Of a DNA stretch of 64,000 bases, positions 37,686 through 64,000 are shown piece by piece. The stretch comes from Terriglobus sp. RCC_193 (lineage in GTDB: Bacteria; Acidobacteriota; Terriglobia; Terriglobales; Acidobacteriaceae). The notes beneath the pieces are model-generated. The model saw only the letters and a list, made by a program, of their open reading frames with translations. It ran no database searches and was not told the DNA's origin. Every line of letters starts with the position of its first letter. Position 1 is the first letter of the stretch. A program made the translations under genes and the position numbers. Location of the stretch: positions 1,922,001 to 1,986,000 of the forward strand of contig NZ_JBFUPK010000001.1 in the NCBI RefSeq assembly GCF_041355105.1. The letters are read 5' to 3'.

Positions 37686-37772
37686 GCCGGGATGGCGGAA
37701 CTGGCAGACGCAGCGGACTCAAAATCCGCCGACCGCAAGGTCGTGGGGGTTCGACCCCCCCTCCCGGCACCA
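37686..37772 (+). tRNA. tRNA-Leu (anticodon CAA)
   Basis: An 87-base class II tRNA with encoded CCA. The acceptor stem is GCCGGGA with TCCCGGC. The anticodon stem is GCGGA/TCCGC with loop CTCAAAA, giving anticodon CAA. There is a long variable arm (GACCGCAAGGTC) and a T loop TTCGACC. The 3' end is the probable attachment site for the downstream integrative element. Confidence 0.95.
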
Positions 37773-37830
37773 ACTGACAACAAAGGACTTACGCGACTTT
37801 GGCCCCTCGAAAATCGGGAGGCCAAAATTG

Positions 37831-37908: not shown

Positions 37909-38862
37909 GTGGACATCGAGACCCTACCAATCAATCTTCCAGACTCACTTTCGAAAGACTTGGCCGACGAAGTTGGTACAGCGATTCGAGAGCAACTCTC
38001 CGAACTGATCTCCGTGGCGGGATTCGATCTCTCTCTACTTGAAGGAGTTTCTGTACCGACCGACCTCAGACAAGGTTTGCTTGCCTTCAACTCTGGACTT
38101 GGTGACGAGCACAACTCAGGCATGAGAGATACCGTCAACGCGAAGATGGTGACGACGATGAGGAACGGACAACTTGGAGCTCATGTCTTCTTCCCTCTGT
38201 CATCGGCCACTGATCTTTGCAGTGGCGATTCTGGGTCTAGACAGACGGCTCAGTACGTACTCGCACATGAAAATGCCCATTGCCATGATCTTTTGAAACG
38301 ACTGGAAGTCATGCCAGCAGATGTCCGGAAATACCCGATAGCAAATCCGCTTTCGATTTGTCTACAAGTCAGTTGGAATGAGTATGCGGCCTGCCGTCTT
38401 TCGGCATTCAAGATGCCGACAATGGTCGAAACTATGAAAGAGGGATTACGCCAAGCAGTTCAAGGCCTTAGAGGGGTCTCTAAAGTTGCTGCTCAGTCGT
38501 TCGCCCCGACGCAGGAAGGCCGCCAAGCAGCGCTGTCTATAGCCCTGGATAGTAGCGTCGCTTTTCTGCAGGCCTTTTCGTACGCGCTGGGTCACTGCAG
38601 AGGTTTGGGCATATCTCTGAACGAAAGCCTTCCCGAGAACTTCGTGTTGCTTCAGGCAAATCCCAACTGCTCCACAGCGCTTCAAAACATCGCCAATGAA
38701 CTTGATGCCCTCTGGGCAGCGTATGGTGAATGGCCCGGGTTCGAAGCGTTGAACCCGCTGCTGGAGAAGATCTGCAGATTCATCTTTGTCTCCACTGGAG
38801 TTGGGATCAAAAGGCATGCAGATCAGATGAGTGTCGGCTTCGTTCCGACGGTCGGTATCTGA
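37909..38862 (+). CDS. Unknown protein with a zinc-metallopeptidase (HEXXH) motif
   Basis: A 317-residue protein starting at GTG 37909, preceded by a caggag ribosome binding site; the open frame upstream runs through the tRNA and is not coding. VLAHENAHCHD places HEXXH at residues 120-124. SWNEYAACRLSA follows, with E158 suitably placed as third zinc ligand, as in several zincin families. No signal peptide or membrane segment is seen, so it is cytoplasmic. I do not recognise a named family. It is followed 31 bp later by a nuclease-like gene. A hand count of one 60-base line (38281) gives 28 G+C, low beside the conjugation genes (38 of 60 at 43141). Confidence 0.75.
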   Translation: MDIETLPINLPDSLSKDLADEVGTAIREQLSELISVAGFDLSLLEGVSVPTDLRQGLLAFNSGLGDEHNSGMRDTVNAKMVTTMRNGQLGAHVFFPLSSATDLCSGDSGSRQTAQYVLAHENAHCHDLLKRLEVMPADVRKYPIANPLSICLQVSWNEYAACRLSAFKMPTMVETMKEGLRQAVQGLRGVSKVAAQSFAPTQEGRQAALSIALDSSVAFLQAFSYALGHCRGLGISLNESLPENFVLLQANPNCSTALQNIANELDALWAAYGEWPGFEALNPLLEKICRFIFVSTGVGIKRHADQMSVGFVPTVGI

Positions 38863-38893
38863 CAAGGCACCACTACGCTGCGACAATTCAGAG

Positions 38894-39391
38894 ATGCGAG
38901 AACTAGTAATCGATGCACTGAGAAAGTCGATGATGAAAATCGTCGATCCACGCTTTTATGAAACCGAGCGAGGTTACCAAGGAGCCCTAGTCGCGCAGCT
39001 CACGGCCCACCTCGATTGGGCTCAGTTCAGCGGCACTCCAATTGTGGAGCAGGAATATCAAAAGACACTACCTAAGCACGGGATCACGATCCGGCCAGAT
39101 GTCATCATTCACGTTCCCGTAGTCCCTGGTCACCCGGAACATCGAACTCAAGGCAACTTCGTGGCCTTCGAACTCAAGAGAAGAGCTTCCACCGCCGACG
39201 CGGTGGCAGATTACGAGAGTCTGCGTTTGTTGGCTCGCAAACTGGCCTACCCTCTAACGATCTTTATAAATCTCGATTCAGAGGTTGACCACCGCGAGCA
39301 GTGCCCACCAGATATACAAGATCAGACCGTTAGCATAGCGGTTCGTTTAGTCAATGGCGCTCCGATCATGATCAGTCGCGATTTTGTCTGA
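38894..39391 (+). CDS. Small PD-(D/E)XK-type nuclease-like protein
   Basis: A 165-residue protein from the ATG at 38894; an earlier in-frame start overlaps the preceding gene. RPDVIIHVP places D69 after a turn and NFVAFELKRR gives E93-x-K95, the D...ExK pattern of the PD-(D/E)XK nuclease fold. ETERGYQGALVAQL may be the preceding helix with its conserved acidic residue. No DNA-binding domain is added, which suggests dependence on a partner, presumably the HEXXH protein upstream. It is convergent with the integrase gene, 7 bp apart. I do not recognise the exact family. Confidence 0.7.
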   Translation: MRELVIDALRKSMMKIVDPRFYETERGYQGALVAQLTAHLDWAQFSGTPIVEQEYQKTLPKHGITIRPDVIIHVPVVPGHPEHRTQGNFVAFELKRRASTADAVADYESLRLLARKLAYPLTIFINLDSEVDHREQCPPDIQDQTVSIAVRLVNGAPIMISRDFV

Positions 39392-39398
39392 TCGGACA

Positions 39399-40412
39399 TC
39401 ATGGTCCCGTTGATGCAGACGAGATCCGATCGATGACTGACAGCCGATGCTCGGGAGAGAGATGGCTGTAGCGCGCAGACATCGTGATCGTCTTGTGTCC
39501 GGCTAATTCCTGAATTTCTTTGATGGATGCCCCAGCCATTGCTAGCCAAGAGCAGAATGTGTGACGGTTGGAATGCCACACGTAGCCAGAAATCTTTGCG
39601 TCTTCCAGGCATGGCACGAACCAAGATCTCGTATCAAACCTTGGTCCTTGCCTAGGGAAGACCATGTCCGAGGGCTTCGACTGCTTTTTCTGCATTGTCT
39701 TCAAAGCGGCGACCGCATCCGCATTCAGATGAACGGTGCGGGCGGAACCGTTCTTTGTCTTCGTTAGATCAATGGTCCGGCGTTCGAGATGGACCTGACC
39801 CCATGTCAGCGAATACTGCTCCGACAACCTCATACCCGTGTTCACGGAAACTTCGAACTCCGCCACATGTTCAGGAAACCGCTTCTTGATTACTTCATGA
39901 AGCGTCTCGTACTCGTCGCGACTGAGGAATCTGAGGCGACCAGCGCTCTCGCGACGGTGACGGACTTGGCGAGCGGGATTGACCGTTACCTTGCCGTTGT
40001 GAAGCCCCTCCCGATAACAGAGCGAGATGAATGCTTTGTAGCGGTTGGTCGTTGCAGCCGTCTTACAGTGCGACCGCAGCCACCGCTCCAACTCTTGTGG
40101 AGTGATCTCGGCTGCTGGGCGCGAGCCGAGATCCTTGCGAACAATCTTGGCTTTGCTGATGTAGCTGCGGCGGTCCTTGTGATCGGCCACATACTCAAGA
40201 GCATCATCGATCAATTCAGAGAAGTGGAGAACCTTGCTGTCTCGGAGTTCAGGTAGCTTTCTGCCCGCAATCGCGTCGGCCTTGCGACTAACGTACAGCT
40301 TGTTCGCATCGGACTTCCGTCCTACCTTTTCACGATGCCGCTTCCCCTCAACGTAGTAATTGATCCACCAAATCCCACTTCCTACGGGATGTTCGTAAAC
40401 ACCTCTCGGCAT
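39399..40412 (-). CDS. Tyrosine recombinase (integrase)
   Basis: A 337-residue phage-type integrase. I chose the ATG at 40412 (MPRGVYEHP); the frame opens 11 codons earlier. An N-terminal arm-binding and SAM-like core-binding region covers about residues 60-155. The catalytic domain has R195 (NTGMRLSEQ), a Lys near 218-220 (TKTKNG), H280-x-x-R283 (WHSNRHTF), H306 (AGHKT) and nucleophile Y315 (ARYSHL), a complete set. It is transcribed toward the tRNA-Leu gene, from which it is separated by 1.6 kb of cargo. It should integrate the element at the tRNA 3' end. Confidence 0.93.
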   Translation of the reverse strand: MPRGVYEHPVGSGIWWINYYVEGKRHREKVGRKSDANKLYVSRKADAIAGRKLPELRDSKVLHFSELIDDALEYVADHKDRRSYISKAKIVRKDLGSRPAAEITPQELERWLRSHCKTAATTNRYKAFISLCYREGLHNGKVTVNPARQVRHRRESAGRLRFLSRDEYETLHEVIKKRFPEHVAEFEVSVNTGMRLSEQYSLTWGQVHLERRTIDLTKTKNGSARTVHLNADAVAALKTMQKKQSKPSDMVFPRQGPRFDTRSWFVPCLEDAKISGYVWHSNRHTFCSWLAMAGASIKEIQELAGHKTITMSARYSHLSPEHRLSVIDRISSASTGP

Positions 40413-40488
40413 AAGCCCTCCGATGGCTGTTTGTGCGGATAGCACAAATTTGCTAGTCCTATTTTACAGCCAAAGTCGAAGTAGAGCC

Positions 40489-40731
40489 CTAACCAGCTAG
40501 GCGCTGCGGGTGATCCGAGCGGGAAAACTTCTGAAGTTCAATCATCGGTATCAGTACCCGCGCACCGATCCTTCGCGTCAACAGCTGCTTGGTGGAGACA
40601 AGGTAATCGAGAGCGCGGGGACTGATCGAGAGAAGGCCAGCAGCTTCTCGTTTTCCCACAAGAAGCGGATCGACTTTACGGGCTTCTGCACGGGCAGGTG
40701 GCTTTTTTCCAGGCTGAAACTCATCACGCAT
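40489..40731 (-). CDS. Small HTH protein, excisionase-like
   Basis: An 80-residue protein. The ATG at 40731 follows a gagg ribosome binding site; an open frame extends much further upstream without support. Residues about 28-75 (LVGKREAAGLLSISPRALDY) form a MerR-like winged HTH of the excisionase/HTH_17 kind. It is 76 bp upstream of the integrase gene on the same strand, the usual place for a recombination directionality factor. It could instead be a repressor. Confidence 0.7.
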   Translation of the reverse strand: MRDEFQPGKKPPARAEARKVDPLLVGKREAAGLLSISPRALDYLVSTKQLLTRRIGARVLIPMIELQKFSRSDHPQRLAG

Positions 40732-40933
40732 AGGGTTGCACCTCAGACAAATCTTGCGGCAAGGAACTGACCAAGTCCAATTCATTTTGGGAATACCGCC
40801 ATCGCTGGGAGAGATGACTAAAGGTTGACGACTTATGTCCCCTTCGTGGAAAATTGTTAACGCAGTCTTGACAGCTTGTCCGATTTGTCTCTCAGTTTCG
40901 CCTCGCACCCTAGTGAGCATCGAGGAGGGCCCC

Positions 40934-41950
40934 ATGAGTGATTACGATCAGCTTGAGTTTCGCCATCTGAAGTACATCCAGGCAGTCGCGGAAACGCGGT
41001 CGTTCAGCGCGGCAGCTACGGTCGCCAACACGACCCAATCGAACATCAGCACACAAATAGCCCATCTCGAAGGCCTCTTCGACATCGAGATTTTTACTCG
41101 ACATCGCGATGGCGCGACGCCTACTCCCTACGGCGAAGTTCTCGTCGCTTGCGCGCGAGACCTGCTGCAGGTTCGTCAAGATGTCATCGACATGTTGAGG
41201 GCCCTGCGCACGGGCGAGATCACTCCTCTCAAGCTCGGCTACTCATCTCTTGTAGGGAAAGAAACCCTGCACACGCTGATCGAAACTACACACAATCTCT
41301 TCCCGCACTGCGAGATATTCTCAGAGGGCGATGAGATTCAAAACCTTGAGCAGAGAGTCGGTTCCGATGAGCTCGACGGCGCTCTAGTCACGCTTCCGAT
41401 AGAGCACAATTCCGACCTAACGACTTGCATAGTTGCCAGAGAAAAGCTCCTCGTCTGTATGCGTTCGGACGACCCATTGGCGGAGCATGAAGCAATCCCC
41501 ACACATCTCCTGAACAATCGCGTCAGCATCTTTCAGTTCCCAATGGTTCATCGTCCCGCGTACCGCAAGATGCTTGAGTTATTGAGTGCTGTGGGCATCA
41601 CTCCCAAAGACAACAAGCCAACGACAAATGTTGAGCACATTCAATGGATGGTTCAGCAAGGCCAATGTCTAGCTTTCTTCAGAAGCGGAACTCGCCTGTT
41701 GCCAGGTCTAATTCTGAAGCCCGTTCACGGTGCGGATTGGACGATGGACACGGCGCTAGTTCTGAAGCCTTCATCGCAACATCCCGCTCTCGCGTTGCTC
41801 CTTCGCGAACTGCGAAAGAGAGCGCGGGAAATCGGCTCTCTCTGGGCACCCAAGAAACCTGAATCCGCAGACGCTGTTACCAAGCGGAAAGGTCCGAAGT
41901 CGGTGCGCGCTAAAGGCACTGGGGTCCTGCCGCTGTTTGAGGCTAGTTGA
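40934..41950 (+). CDS. LysR-family transcriptional regulator of the element
   Basis: A 338-residue LysR-type regulator. The ATG at 40934 has an excellent gaggagg ribosome binding site. The HTH is at about residues 8-65 (FRHLKYIQAVAETRSFSAAA, TTQSNISTQIAHLE), followed by an effector domain and a basic tail of about 35 residues. It is divergent from the excisionase-like gene and directly upstream of the conjugation operon, so it probably controls one or both in response to an unknown ligand. It is not related to a metabolic operon here, which is unusual for LysR proteins. Confidence 0.88.
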   Translation: MSDYDQLEFRHLKYIQAVAETRSFSAAATVANTTQSNISTQIAHLEGLFDIEIFTRHRDGATPTPYGEVLVACARDLLQVRQDVIDMLRALRTGEITPLKLGYSSLVGKETLHTLIETTHNLFPHCEIFSEGDEIQNLEQRVGSDELDGALVTLPIEHNSDLTTCIVAREKLLVCMRSDDPLAEHEAIPTHLLNNRVSIFQFPMVHRPAYRKMLELLSAVGITPKDNKPTTNVEHIQWMVQQGQCLAFFRSGTRLLPGLILKPVHGADWTMDTALVLKPSSQHPALALLLRELRKRAREIGSLWAPKKPESADAVTKRKGPKSVRAKGTGVLPLFEAS

Positions 41951-59343: not shown

Positions 59344-60291
59344 TCAGAGTAGCGCGTCGTCCACCAGAGTCAATGGTTCAAGCCGATAGCGATGAAACTC
59401 CTCGGCAGTCTCGGGTAGTGCATCCATTACATCCATCGTGATAATTGCCTCGACCGCTGGGTCTGTTACCTCACGCCAGCCCGCCACCTTGCCGCGAGAG
59501 ATTGCTCCGGTGTCGATCGGTGCTGTTTTGAACTGGTTGGTCGTGAAACTTCCATCCTGGTCGTTGAGCAACCCCTTGACGCTAATCGGCAGCGGACCGA
59601 GGTGTGCTCGATGAGCAACTCTCAATCTTGCGGTGATGCGAACATGACTCTGAGCATCTCTGAAATGCACAATTGCGTGTTCCGCGACCACGACAGAATG
59701 AATCCCGGATTCCTGTAGAGAGATGTCATGCATCCATTTCTGACCGAAAAGGGTGATGACCCATCCGAGATGTTCGTCTTTGGTATCGAAGACCTCCAGG
59801 AAGTGGAGGTCTTCACCGGGCAGACCCGGACAGTGATGTCCAGGCAGAGATTCAAAAGTTACGTTCCATGCTTCAAGGATGGTCGAACGTACCAAGACCG
59901 GGATGGCGACCTCGGAACTCCAATCGATGCTTTCTGTGTCGAGATATGTGCGTGTCTCTATGCCGCGATTGCGGGCCATGTTTATTGCGCCGGGCGTGAA
60001 TCCAGCGCTGGAGATTAGTACGCCCTTATTTGCTTTGACATCTGTGAGTGAGCTGGCGAACTCACCAATGACGCTGACATCAATCGGGCGCGCTTCATCC
60101 TTGCATTCGACAACGATCAAAAGAGGATAATTTGCGACAGTGATACGTATCGTGATGTCGAGCTGGCGCTCAACGCCAGATTCATGGCCTACGATCTTTT
60201 CGTTGTGGGCAACGACAGCGCCCTGCGGCGCCAACTGGGAATGGATCTCATGGATGACTTTTTCGAACCGCTTCCACTTCGCTTCTGCCAT
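59344..60291 (-). CDS. Mrr-like restriction endonuclease
   Basis: A 315-residue protein. Residues about 5-120 form an Mrr-type PD-(D/E)XK domain: ERQLDITIRI gives D45, LLIVVECKDEARP gives E62-x-K64, followed by KGVLISSAGFTPGAINMA, a strong Mrr family block. The remaining 190 residues form a beta-rich C-terminal domain that I cannot assign; it is not the usual winged-helix Mrr_N region, which is absent. It is first in an apparent operon with the HEPN gene. A DNA-targeting defence role is likely. Confidence 0.82.
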   Translation of the reverse strand: MAEAKWKRFEKVIHEIHSQLAPQGAVVAHNEKIVGHESGVERQLDITIRITVANYPLLIVVECKDEARPIDVSVIGEFASSLTDVKANKGVLISSAGFTPGAINMARNRGIETRTYLDTESIDWSSEVAIPVLVRSTILEAWNVTFESLPGHHCPGLPGEDLHFLEVFDTKDEHLGWVITLFGQKWMHDISLQESGIHSVVVAEHAIVHFRDAQSHVRITARLRVAHRAHLGPLPISVKGLLNDQDGSFTTNQFKTAPIDTGAISRGKVAGWREVTDPAVEAIITMDVMDALPETAEEFHRYRLEPLTLVDDALL

Positions 60292-60516: not shown

Positions 60517-61659
60517 TCAGTCCAGAACCCTCGTTCCCGACGTGATCGGAGCAGCACTTGATCGGTCAATCAGGTCTGCCTCGGGTATGACACCTCCCTC
60601 GACTTCAAAGTTGCTTAAGCCAATCCCAACCAATCGGTAAAGTTGCCGCGCGTCGAAATCGACACGAGTACAGAGATGCAGACCTAAATTTGTGAAATCC
60701 TCACACGTCATCGGGACAGTGGGCGGCGTCAAGCTGCGAGTGAGCGAATTGAACTCTTTTGTCTTCAGTTTGAGCACTACCGTCCGGCCCCGACGCGCGT
60801 TTGCTTGCGAGGCATTCCAGACTTTCTCTGCTAGCCGCCGAATGTGTTGTTCGCACTCGGATAGTGGGATGTCGTCAAGGAATGTGTCTTCAGCGGAAAT
60901 TTGCTTGCGAACCCGATTTGAGATCACTGGATTGTTGTCAATGCCACGCGCCAGTTGGAACAACCGTGTGCCCCAACTTCCAAAGTGGCCTTCGAGCGTC
61001 GGGAGATCCATTGCGTAGATGTCGCTAACGGTTTTTATACCAACGTCCGACATCCGCGCTTCGGTGACTTTGCCGACACCAGGAATCTTCCCGACAGGTA
61101 GCGGCATCAGGAACGATTGAACCTCGTGCGGTTGGACAACGAACTGGCCGTTCGGTTTCCTCCAGTCAGAAGCAATCTTCGCAATGAATTTGTTCGGTGC
61201 GATCCCGGCAGACGCAGTAAGGTTCAGTTCATCCCAAATCTGTAGTCGGATGGTCTTCGCGACTAGCGTTGCGGTCTTCAAGCCAGTCTTGTTCACCGTG
61301 ACATCGAGGTAGGCTTCATCAAGCGATAGCGGCTCAATGTCGTCCGTGTGCCGTTCGAAGATTTCACGAACAGCTTTTGATACGGCTTTGTAACGTACGA
61401 AATCAGGTGGGAGAAACACTGCATCGGGACACATGCGCTCTGCCGTGATCGCCGGCATAGCGGAGCGTACGCCGAACCGCCGAGCCTCGTAGGACGCTGC
61501 ACAGACTACCGAACGCTTACCCTTCCAAGCCACGACAACAGGCCGACCCTTGAGAGATGGGTCATCGCGTTGCTCGACGGACGCATAGAAGGCGTCCATA
61601 TCGACATGAACGATCTTGCGAGTGCCTATCGCCAGGATTGCGTCCGTCAGATCATCCAT
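60517..61659 (-). CDS. dinB: Y-family DNA polymerase IV
   Basis: A 380-residue Y-family polymerase from the ATG at 61659 (MDDLTDAIL); an alternative ATG at 61698 would overlap the preceding gene by more. Palm residues are intact: HVDMDAFYASVEQ (D20, D22) and SLDEAYLDV. The GIGKVT-like finger (KIPGVGKVTEARM) and the little-finger domain follow. Because catalytic residues are present it is not an ImuB, which lacks them. It is the last gene of the dnaE2 cassette. Confidence 0.93.
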   Translation of the reverse strand: MDDLTDAILAIGTRKIVHVDMDAFYASVEQRDDPSLKGRPVVVAWKGKRSVVCAASYEARRFGVRSAMPAITAERMCPDAVFLPPDFVRYKAVSKAVREIFERHTDDIEPLSLDEAYLDVTVNKTGLKTATLVAKTIRLQIWDELNLTASAGIAPNKFIAKIASDWRKPNGQFVVQPHEVQSFLMPLPVGKIPGVGKVTEARMSDVGIKTVSDIYAMDLPTLEGHFGSWGTRLFQLARGIDNNPVISNRVRKQISAEDTFLDDIPLSECEQHIRRLAEKVWNASQANARRGRTVVLKLKTKEFNSLTRSLTPPTVPMTCEDFTNLGLHLCTRVDFDARQLYRLVGIGLSNFEVEGGVIPEADLIDRSSAAPITSGTRVLD

Positions 61660-61942
61660 GACAAAGCCTGCAGGTGGTGTAGTGTCGAACGAACTCATCC
61701 CACTCAGGAATCCCGATAAAGCCCGATGAGTCCAGATGTGCGAAGTCACTTGGCTCTAAGAACGTGAAATCAGTTGGACGTTCAAGCATGAACGAGAACA
61801 GCAATTCGATGCCATAAGCGCAAGGAGCGCCTTTACCCTTCGGGAAGAGATAGCCGATAGACGCGTCCGAAAGGCGACCCTGCATTCGTGTCTCCTTCGC
61901 CGTTAAGTCTGGCATATCGCGCCTTGTTTCCTGAAATTCCAT
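61652..61942 (-). CDS. Small hypothetical protein of the dnaE2-dinB cassette
   Basis: A 96-residue protein if it starts at the ATG at 61942 (MEFQETRRDM), 10 bases after the preceding stop; a longer form from 61984 is possible. Contains two Cys close together at the C-terminus (TTCRLCHG), reminiscent of half a zinc site, and an acidic/aromatic middle (FTFLEPSDFAHLD). No recognised family. Overlap of its stop with the dinB start shows co-translation. Possibly an accessory factor taking the place of ImuA. Confidence 0.6.
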   Translation of the reverse strand: MEFQETRRDMPDLTAKETRMQGRLSDASIGYLFPKGKGAPCAYGIELLFSFMLERPTDFTFLEPSDFAHLDSSGFIGIPEWDEFVRHYTTCRLCHG

Positions 61943-61952
61943 ATGGACCACT

Positions 61953-62246
61953 TCAGCGCGGCGAATCATCGTCATTTGCGACATACCAAGGCACTTTCTT
62001 CGACTGAAACAGATCTGGATATCGAGTGGTCAAGAAGGTCAGGACACGCTTCGCGACTCGCACGCTATGCTCCACTTCTTTTTCCCATTCGATGCTCGAA
62101 AGACCGTCGCTGTGGGTGGCGTCCCAACTGATCGTCCGCATCCCTAGGATGAGGCCTGCCGTGATGACCATCGCTGGTCCGAGCTTCTGCTGATCGACTT
62201 CATTGCGATGCCCGCCTACCTGAGAGCCTTTATTAGTGGAAGTCAT
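61953..62246 (-). CDS. Small hypothetical protein of the dnaE2-dinB cassette
   Basis: A 97-residue protein whose ATG at 62246 lies inside the 3' end of dnaE2 (14-bp overlap), with a ggtgac ribosome binding site. It has one hydrophobic stretch (PAMVITAGLILGM) and an otherwise helical sequence (EHSVRVAKRVLTFLTTRYPD). I do not recognise a family. The tight overlaps on both sides argue that it is real and works with the two polymerases. Confidence 0.65.
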   Translation of the reverse strand: MTSTNKGSQVGGHRNEVDQQKLGPAMVITAGLILGMRTISWDATHSDGLSSIEWEKEVEHSVRVAKRVLTFLTTRYPDLFQSKKVPWYVANDDDSPR

Positions 62247-64000
62247 GCGATGTCACCTGTAAGCGGCCAGCTTGGCTCTCTACGGAAAGTTCCTTGAATG
62301 ACTTCGCCATCACATGAATGATTGGGCCTTCTTTTTGCAACGGCCCTTCTACCGCCAAGAACTTCGCAGTCGTGATGAGCCGTCTGTTCTTTTCGAAGAA
62401 ATTCGGAGCCACGAAGACATTGAAGACGCCCGTTTCATCCGCCACTGAGAGGAAGACAACACCGGAGGCGGTGCCGGGACGTTGCTTGACTATCGCGAGT
62501 CCGGCAGTTTTGACGTAGAAGCCGTGAGGCCGCCGCGTAAGGTCAACAGCCCGCAGATAACCGCGACGACTTAGCTCCGCACGACGGAAAGACATAGGAT
62601 GAGGCCCCGTTGTGACGCTGCTCACCGCGTAATCCGCCACAAGTCTCTCTTCGGCTGACATCGGTTGAAGCGGTATCTCTGAAGCCTCTTCACGGAGCAA
62701 TTCGCTCTGCTGCATCAGCAGCGGGCCTTCCGGCTTTCCAGCGCGTTCTATCTGCCAAAGCGCATCCCGCCGATGCTCGACACCGTCGAGACTATTCAAA
62801 GCTCCCACGTTAGCCAAGAGTGACAGTTCTTTTCGGTTCAGCTGAGGAGCCCGAATCACCAGATCATCGACAGACTTGAAGCGGCCCATAGACCGTGCTC
62901 TAACAACCGTCTCTGCGCATTGGCTTCTCAGGCCTCGCACGTAACCAAGTCCAAGCCGCAATGACAAAGATTCGTCGTCTTCGTGCTCAATAGTGCAGGG
63001 CCAATCCGAAACTTGGATGTCTATGGGCTTTACTCGTAACCCGTGCCGTCGTGCATCTTCGATGATGACGGATGGGCTGTAAAAGCCCATTGGTTGGTTG
63101 TTCATCATCGCGCAGGTGAAGGCAGCAAGGTACTTCACTTTGATGTAAGCAGAGGCGTACGCGATGAGCGCGAAACTGGCAGCATGACTCTCTGGAAAGC
63201 CGTAGAGGGCGAACGAACTGATGTTCTGAATGATGGTCTCTTGCGTTTCAATATCGAGCCCGTTGGCGGTCATGCCATCCCGCAGACGACCTTCAAGATT
63301 CTTCATCCGCTCCCACGAACGGCGCATCCCGACAGCGCGGCGGAGCTCTTCAGCTTCCGAACCGGTGAAATTGGCAACGACCATAGCCATGCGCAAGAGC
63401 TGTTCTTGAAACAGCGGAACGCCAAGCGTCCGTTTGAGTGTCGATTCGAGGGAAGGGTGCGGATACGTCACTTCCTCTTGCTTCTGCCGACGCCGCATGT
63501 AAGGGTGCATCATCTTGCCGACGATAGGGCCGGGGCGGATGATGGCGACCTGAACGACGAGATCGTAAAATTTCTCAGGCCGGTTGCGAGGCAGCGACGA
63601 CATCTGCGCCCGACTCTCCACTTGGAACATCCCAATCGTGTCTGCACGCTGGAGAGTTCGATAGACTCCCTCGTCTTCCGGCAGTTGTGCGAGATCGAGT
63701 TGTTCACCGTGATGCTCGGGCACAAGCGACAGGCAATCCTTCAATACGGCCATCATCCCGAGGCCCAGCAAATCAACTTTGATGATTCCTAGGTTGGCGC
63801 AGTCTTCCTTGTCCCACTGCACGACAGTTCTTCCAGGCATGGAAGCTCTTTCGAGCGGGACAACCTTATCGAGCTGGCCTTGGCAGATAACCATACCGCC
63901 GGAGTGCTGACCGAGATGACGTGGAAAGTCTTGCACCCGCATACAGAGTTCGAGGTACTTCGCGATACGTGGATGTTCCACGTCGAAGCCCGCGTTCTGA
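62233..64000 (-). CDS. dnaE2: Error-prone DNA polymerase DnaE2, N-terminal part beyond the window
   Basis: The C-terminal 588 residues of a C-family polymerase; the frame is still open at the window edge, so the 5' end is missing (the full family is about 1050 residues). Visible blocks are LGIIKVDLLGLGMM with a catalytic Asp, DTIGMFQVESRAQMSSLPR typical of DnaE2, RPGPIVGKMMHPYMRRR, and PESHAASFALIAYASAYIK. The tail includes an OB-fold (GVVFLSVADETGVFNVFV). It lacks a tau-binding tail, as DnaE2 does. It works in SOS mutagenesis. First gene seen in the cassette. Confidence 0.95.
   Translation of the reverse strand, partial: QNAGFDVEHPRIAKYLELCMRVQDFPRHLGQHSGGMVICQGQLDKVVPLERASMPGRTVVQWDKEDCANLGIIKVDLLGLGMMAVLKDCLSLVPEHHGEQLDLAQLPEDEGVYRTLQRADTIGMFQVESRAQMSSLPRNRPEKFYDLVVQVAIIRPGPIVGKMMHPYMRRRQKQEEVTYPHPSLESTLKRTLGVPLFQEQLLRMAMVVANFTGSEAEELRRAVGMRRSWERMKNLEGRLRDGMTANGLDIETQETIIQNISSFALYGFPESHAASFALIAYASAYIKVKYLAAFTCAMMNNQPMGFYSPSVIIEDARRHGLRVKPIDIQVSDWPCTIEHEDDESLSLRLGLGYVRGLRSQCAETVVRARSMGRFKSVDDLVIRAPQLNRKELSLLANVGALNSLDGVEHRRDALWQIERAGKPEGPLLMQQSELLREEASEIPLQPMSAEERLVADYAVSSVTTGPHPMSFRRAELSRRGYLRAVDLTRRPHGFYVKTAGLAIVKQRPGTASGVVFLSVADETGVFNVFVAPNFFEKNRRLITTAKFLAVEGPLQKEGPIIHVMAKSFKELSVESQAGRLQVTSHDFH

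Follow-up and report, generated by a model that had tools for sequence, protein, structure and literature searches.

Introduction

Two groups of described proteins come close to the genes discussed here. ImmA/IrrE (M78) and CapP are cytoplasmic HEXXH peptidases of mobile elements and defence loci, as the first of our two proteins also appears to be. For the second protein the nearest described system is PD-lambda-3, which has a second component, as the ending of the model name PD-Lambda-3_A also suggests. In the sections consulted, PMC10952713 gives a PD-(D/E)XK domain for PD-lambda-3 with reference to Vassallo et al. 2022, and PMC13190303 describes it as an abortive infection system; a search of PMC9519451 for the term 'lambda-3' found nothing. 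Further, zincin-like peptidases are the commonest domain in the polyvalent proteins of phages and conjugative elements, according to the consulted part of PMC5512222.

Here we study two neighbouring genes in a window of 64,000 nucleotides (the whole stretch of DNA that was analysed), which belongs to a 4.2-Mb genome in 9 contigs. The original prediction saw in them a protein with a zincin signature and a nuclease-like protein that could act together as one defence unit. Among the titles and abstract openings searched, no paper was recognised as describing such a peptidase-nuclease pair.

Results

The gene pair

The two genes are co-directional and separated by an intergenic gap of 31 nt (38863-38893), and the coordinates bear out the two reading frames at the positions first proposed for them. 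The HENAH motif, the downstream NEYAA glutamate (within NEYAACR, 157-163) and the D69 and E93-x-K95 residues of a 165-residue second protein were likewise located where they had been predicted.

37909..38862, + strand: likely zincin-like metallopeptidase of the phrog_11743 family, 317 aa (ORF, family conservation, model)
38266..38280, + strand: HEXXH motif HENAH, residues 120-124 (H, E and H invariant in 25 sequences)
38374..38397, + strand: WNEYAACR, residues 156-163; E158 is the presumed third zinc ligand (W156, E158, Y159, A161 and R163 invariant in 25 sequences)
38894..39391, + strand: PD-(D/E)XK nuclease-like protein (P0002), 165 aa (ORF, homologues, weak profile matches)
39098..39100, + strand: D69 of the RPD motif, nuclease-like protein (invariant in 5 sequences)
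39170..39178, + strand: E93-L94-K95, nuclease-like protein (L94 and K95 invariant; E93 is E/E/Q/A/A in 5 sequences)

The peptidase frame starts with GTG at 37909, with AGGAG upstream. The ATG start of the nuclease gene at 38894 agrees with a homologue (L075) whose ORF likewise begins MREL.

When the peptidase sequence is shuffled (20,000 shuffles), an HEXXH motif arises by chance in 0.8% of cases. For the nuclease-like protein, with PD at residues 68-69 and ELK at 93-95, the pattern D-x(10-40)-[DE]-x-K arises by chance in 46% of shuffled sequences, and still in 7.7% of them when PD has to be present. On its own this motif is therefore weak, and we did not accept it as evidence for a nuclease. 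It is family conservation on which the case depends.

The mobile element

The pair had been placed between a tRNA attachment site and an integrase, and the features found on its two sides confirm this.

37686..37772, + strand: tRNA-Leu (CAA), integration target (ARAGORN)
37741..37773, + strand: attL, 33-nt perfect direct repeat (whole-genome pattern search, then extension)
G000:C1:2015229-2015261, beyond the window: attR, second 33-nt copy (same repeat search)
39399..40445, - strand: tyrosine recombinase, integrase (Pfam Phage_integrase, 8.9e-28)
40489..40935, - strand: small protein, at a guess a possible excisionase (Pfam HTH_17, 0.013, below the cut-off)

A 26-nt att core taken from the 3' end of the tRNA is found twice across the genome, within the tRNA at C1:1959747 and again at C1:2015235; both copies came out exact in a search that allowed up to 3 mismatches. 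The element between the repeats measures about 55.5 kb; it begins inside the window and ends outside. ORFs of conjugation type, named by eye, include VirB- (VirB4) and VirD4-type proteins and a MobF-type relaxase. With the integrase and the att repeats at the tRNA gene, the element is apparently integrative and conjugative. It holds several defence-type genes.

Elsewhere in the same element, beyond the window, there is an apparent CBASS with HORMA and TRIP13 (G000:C1:2000771-2004280, L080:15772-19281). Its cyclase (1.5e-123), HORMA protein (8.1e-70), TRIP13 (3.2e-120) and an effector with the PADLOC label 'TIR' (4.2e-184) are adjoined on the opposite strand by a WYL-type protein. At G000:C1:1993723-1999664 (L080:8724-14665) a type III methyltransferase (PADLOC E 0) is next to a large ORF whose matches to type III restriction models are weak (9.3e-6). 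Within the window, the ORF at 59344-60291 (- strand) looks by eye like an Mrr-like restriction protein and has a match to PADLOC PDC-S02 (5.8e-5). Also part of the element are ORFs at 60517-63981 (- strand) that resemble, by eye, a DNA polymerase of the Y family and one of DnaE type.

The slot between attL and the integrase

Apart from the peptidase and nuclease genes, no ORF in the interval from attL to the integrase was accepted as cargo. Integrase relatives at E<=1e-60 are present in 22 of 150 related genomes, the own genome included, and the slot was compared, at that end of the element only, in the four closest of them (G083, G057, G087 and G002; 75-81% identical). In three (G083, G057 and G087, with integrases 75-78% identical) a tRNA-Leu(CAA) lies beside the integrase.

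With ORFs of at least 90 aa counted and frames reading across the tRNA left out, we find one 367-aa ORF in the slot of G083, a 207-aa ORF on the plus strand and a 155-aa ORF on the minus strand in G057, and no ORF of that size in the about 300 nt of G087. For G002 the stretch taken holds no tRNA, and other ORFs occupy that place. No relative of the window peptidase or nuclease was found in the slot stretches of these four genomes. Since the three relatives at the same tRNA hold other ORFs or no clear gene, the contents of the slot appear to be exchanged. Thus the att repeats and the varying contents support the earlier idea that the interval from attL to the integrase is a place for cargo.

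The peptidase-like protein

Residues 17-301 of the first protein match phrog_11743 of PHROGs v4 (2e-13), a family annotated there as of unknown function; a literature search for 'phrog 11743' gave no papers. Thirteen positions are invariant in the 25 aligned members: L44, D52, H120, E121, H124, W156, E158, Y159, A161, R163, S165, G228 and W275. An AlphaFold model built with the family alignment (pLDDT 80.1, pTM 0.84) has strands at 44-48, 79-85 and 88-94, then the HEXXH helix (108-134) and then the helix with E158 (147-168). The consulted part of PMC5512222 gives the same order of elements for the zincin-like metallopeptidases that phages and conjugative elements carry.

Neither Pfam, NCBIfam nor PADLOC has a model that matches the protein, or the 13 family members that were scanned, significantly; this includes the zincin models of Pfam and NCBIfam. 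No second known domain was found in the protein with Pfam and NCBIfam. One family member has a weak match to Peptidase_M91 (0.25). The Peptidase_M78 profile is not among the families hit by the 13 members at E<=1, and an M78 identity was not accepted.

With Foldseek, no solved structure matches the model at E<=0.001, and the top rows are not zincins, the first being a talin domain (E 0.56). A PDB search with the 25-member profile brought up no zincin, and its sole match below 0.001 was a designed helical protein (7.8e-5); a 13-member profile gives two weak rows at an HEXXH stretch (E 0.19 and 0.49). Among the predicted viral proteins of BFVD the best row is a siphovirus protein with the UniProt label 'Lethal factor' (E 7.7e-3, probability 1.00, TM 0.44/0.56), a label that denotes a zincin domain of M34 type. 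Further down the list, some phage proteins labelled as peptidase, M34, SprT or IrrE stand among tail proteins and proteins with no name, and no row reaches 0.001. The predicted zincin is supported by the conserved motif and the predicted order of elements, with no significant zincin match from Foldseek; in view of the family conservation we consider the first protein likely to be a zincin.

Distribution and neighbours of the peptidase family

Relatives of the peptidase were found in 7 of 150 related genomes (the own genome and two later-dropped matches included) and, with the PHROG profile, in 6 of 396 genomes of the phylum (the own genome and one later-dropped short frame included). There are 26 named genome loci, including Granulicella, Terracidiphilus and Bryocella, 6 loci in viral contigs and 19 plasmid records at E<=1. 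The named genera suggest that the host of the window is an acidobacterium. A search with the single sequence found no relative in the genome_contigs or phage sets. Three matches were dropped: one in G002 (L035, E about 1e-3), whose alignment lacks HEXXH and which reads as a WYL-type regulator, one in G012 (E about 1e-3) that has the same residues covered and the same frame length, and a 94-aa frame in G024 that is too short.

The neighbours of the family vary by lineage. In a Pseudomonas locus (L057) a Cap17-like nucleosidase gene (PADLOC effector, 6.5e-283) precedes the family gene by 37 nt, and a like ORF of 508 aa is found upstream of the family gene in two further Pseudomonas loci (L059 and L060). 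The Afipia family gene (L036) comes 40 nt after that of a DUF4365 protein (7.9e-36), and in an alphaproteobacterium (L048) a DUF3800 protein follows the family gene after 20 nt. Two family genes are near ORFs whose start resembles, by eye, that of the element's MobF-type relaxase, at 24 nt (L040) and about 1 kb (L029). In the ORF listing, read by eye, many peptidase loci, among them many of Acidobacteriota, have no convincing close co-directional partner.

Further upstream and on the other strand at L057:90-4957, as in L059 and L060, a cyclase-like ORF that by eye resembles the cyclase of the element lies beside a WYL-type ORF.

The nuclease-like protein

Four clear homologues, 33-40% identical to the window protein, were found: G483, G253 and G274 in a set of 396 genomes and G789 in a set of 299. 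In the five sequences E25, E52, E54, R67, P68, D69, L94 and K95 are invariant, and the position of E93 reads E, E, Q, A and A. Of the proposed motif, D69 and K95 are thus conserved in these sequences and E93 is variable; the AxK of two homologues questions catalysis in those two, as judged from their sequences.

The PADLOC model PD-Lambda-3_A matches the protein at 5.7e-4 over residues 65-130, that is from D69 to past K95. It also matches the homologues in G483 (7.6e-6, residues 82-133) and G789 (0.007, residues 80-129), where the match omits RPD and begins at about the xLK stretch, and it has no match in G253 and G274; overall, three of the five family members are matched, weakly. Pfam and NCBIfam have no match. 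A model from the single sequence is poor (pLDDT 50.8) and gives, at low confidence, strands at 70-73 and 90-94, a helix at 100-117 and a strand at 121-128, that is strand, strand, helix, strand around D69 and K95. The weak profile matches and this low-confidence order of elements point to a probable PD-(D/E)XK-type protein, in line with the original prediction; a fold search with the same model returned nothing useful for it. Membership of PD-lambda-3 was not accepted.

Wider searches, in 150 relatives and in the order of G483 (94 genomes) and the class of G789 (78 genomes), added only a weak and distant match in G657 (5.1e-5), which is kept as a lead only. Weak matches in G435, G286 and G182 were dropped. 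No relative was found in plasmids, viral contigs or phages with the single sequence, in viral contigs with a four-row profile, or in plasmids or phages with two of the homologues as queries. The neighbours elsewhere are small ORFs in G483 and a 483-aa ORF in G789. At L112:5119-6718 (G657) an ORF of nucleoside-phosphorylase type (by eye) is followed after 40 nt by the weak nuclease relative; L112 is not one of the integrase loci.

Co-occurrence of the two families

The searches, which follow the check suggested with the original prediction, do not support the pair as one conserved system. With phmmer, the nuclease has no match among the ORFs of 49 fetched peptidase-family loci besides the window's own ORF (0/49; next best E 0.55). 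A part of these loci is short or reaches the end of a contig, and 43 are left when six that repeat another locus or have an equal-scoring member are removed. A nuclease profile found nothing in 28 peptidase-carrying genomes, a test that excluded the genomes of L037, L038, L043, L049 and L052, plasmids and viral contigs. An empty answer is uninformative unless the same set also holds a positive control; in other sets the profile does recover both G483, which is part of it, and G789, which is not. Conversely, the peptidase profile has no match in three nuclease-carrying genomes (0/3), and at the fourth nuclease locus (G789) there is no peptidase relative within 14 kb. On the sequences compared, this lack of co-occurrence lowers the likelihood of an inherited two-gene system; a recent functional pairing could still exist.

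Discussion

We lean towards the view that these are two mobile cargo genes with separate histories that are now neighbours in the slot, each probably a stand-alone or exchangeable defence or conflict factor. The direct observations behind it are the ORFs, the conservation of their families, the att sites, the varying slot contents and the absence of co-occurrence in the sample searched. Both genes would have been captured side by side between attL and the integrase of the 55.5-kb element at tRNA-Leu(CAA). The first would encode a cytoplasmic zinc peptidase, in which H120, H124 and E158 are expected to bind zinc and E121 to act as the general base, and which may cleave a protein partner or target, like mobile peptidases of conflict systems. 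The second would encode a small protein of PD-(D/E)XK type, with DNA cleavage as its most likely activity. Each gene probably serves the element alone as a defence or conflict gene, with no functional link between the two.

This reading is ranked above the functional unit, the form in which the pair was first interpreted and which we regard as possible though rather unlikely. Here the peptidase would sense infection, or be freed from inhibition, and then switch on DNA cutting by cleaving either the nuclease or an inhibitor of the nuclease; the peptidase would be a module placed beside different effectors in different lineages. Since only 31 nt separate the two co-directional genes, which share their slot with no other cargo, and since some family members have a close effector-type neighbour, a unit can still be entertained, and these features, which suit one operon, count against independence. 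The close co-directional neighbours of other members, that is the Cap17-like effector (37 nt in L057, and a like ORF at two more Pseudomonas loci), the DUF4365 protein (40 nt in L036) and the DUF3800 protein (20 nt in L048), may also be beyond chance. However, neighbouring cargo genes can act separately, the partner is upstream at some peptidase loci and downstream at others, many loci of Acidobacteriota have by eye no convincing co-directional partner, and the pairing was found nowhere else in the sample searched. The wider version, in which phrog_11743 is an undescribed mobile peptidase module beside varied effectors (a Cap17-type nucleosidase, a DUF4365 protein, a PD-(D/E)XK-type nuclease) that it controls by proteolysis, and the window pair is its nuclease form, we consider doubtful.

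It is improbable that the zincin works for the element itself and not for defence, acting in a new host after transfer on a host protein that it cleaves or a protein of the element that it processes, while the nuclease-like protein limits rival DNA. The presence of the family on plasmids and viral contigs, the two family genes near relaxase-like ORF starts (L040 and L029) and the frequency of zincin-like peptidases among polyvalent-protein domains, as given in the consulted part of PMC5512222, agree with such a role, but the gene lies outside the transfer region, has no second known domain and was not found in the slot of the four relatives with 75-81% identical integrases, of which that end was read. 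Very improbable, finally, is that the second gene encodes a binding protein of the PD-(D/E)XK or another fold and not an active nuclease. The change of E93 to A in two of the four clear homologues and to Q in a third, together with the poor single-sequence model, could be read in this way; against it, the window protein retains D69, E93 and K95, its low-confidence strand-strand-helix-strand order fits the PD-(D/E)XK fold, and three of the five family members match PD-Lambda-3_A weakly.

The analysis adds a widespread peptidase-like family of unknown function to the genes that are likely to act in conflicts, and it pinpoints the residues presumed to be catalytic. The exchangeable slot from the tRNA-Leu att site to the integrase is a place to seek more cargo in elements with this integrase. 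Should the peptidase turn out to control its varying neighbours, that would amount to a new type of protease-gated immunity.

Comparison with known systems

With ImmA/IrrE (M78) the locus shares one link, a peptidase-family member two genes from an XRE-M78 protein (RmrA model, 1.3e-181). It differs in that none of the 13 family members scanned has an M78 match and that no repressor gene lies between attL and the integrase. The likeness to PD-lambda-3 is the PADLOC match of the nuclease-like protein; the differences are its restriction to residues 65-130 and the adjoining peptidase-like protein, which matches no PADLOC model, so that no second component was found there. With the polyvalent-protein zincins, as described in the consulted part of PMC5512222, the peptidase has in common an HEXXH helix, a next helix with Glu, a small three-stranded sheet and carriage by phages and conjugative elements, whereas it is stand-alone, has extra conserved C-terminal helices and matches no Pfam or NCBIfam zincin model significantly, with no homology seen at the sequence level. 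The likeness to phrog_11743 is common to all 25 aligned members of the peptidase family (best 3.9e-86), among which the window protein is a divergent one, with 16-26% identity to the other 24.
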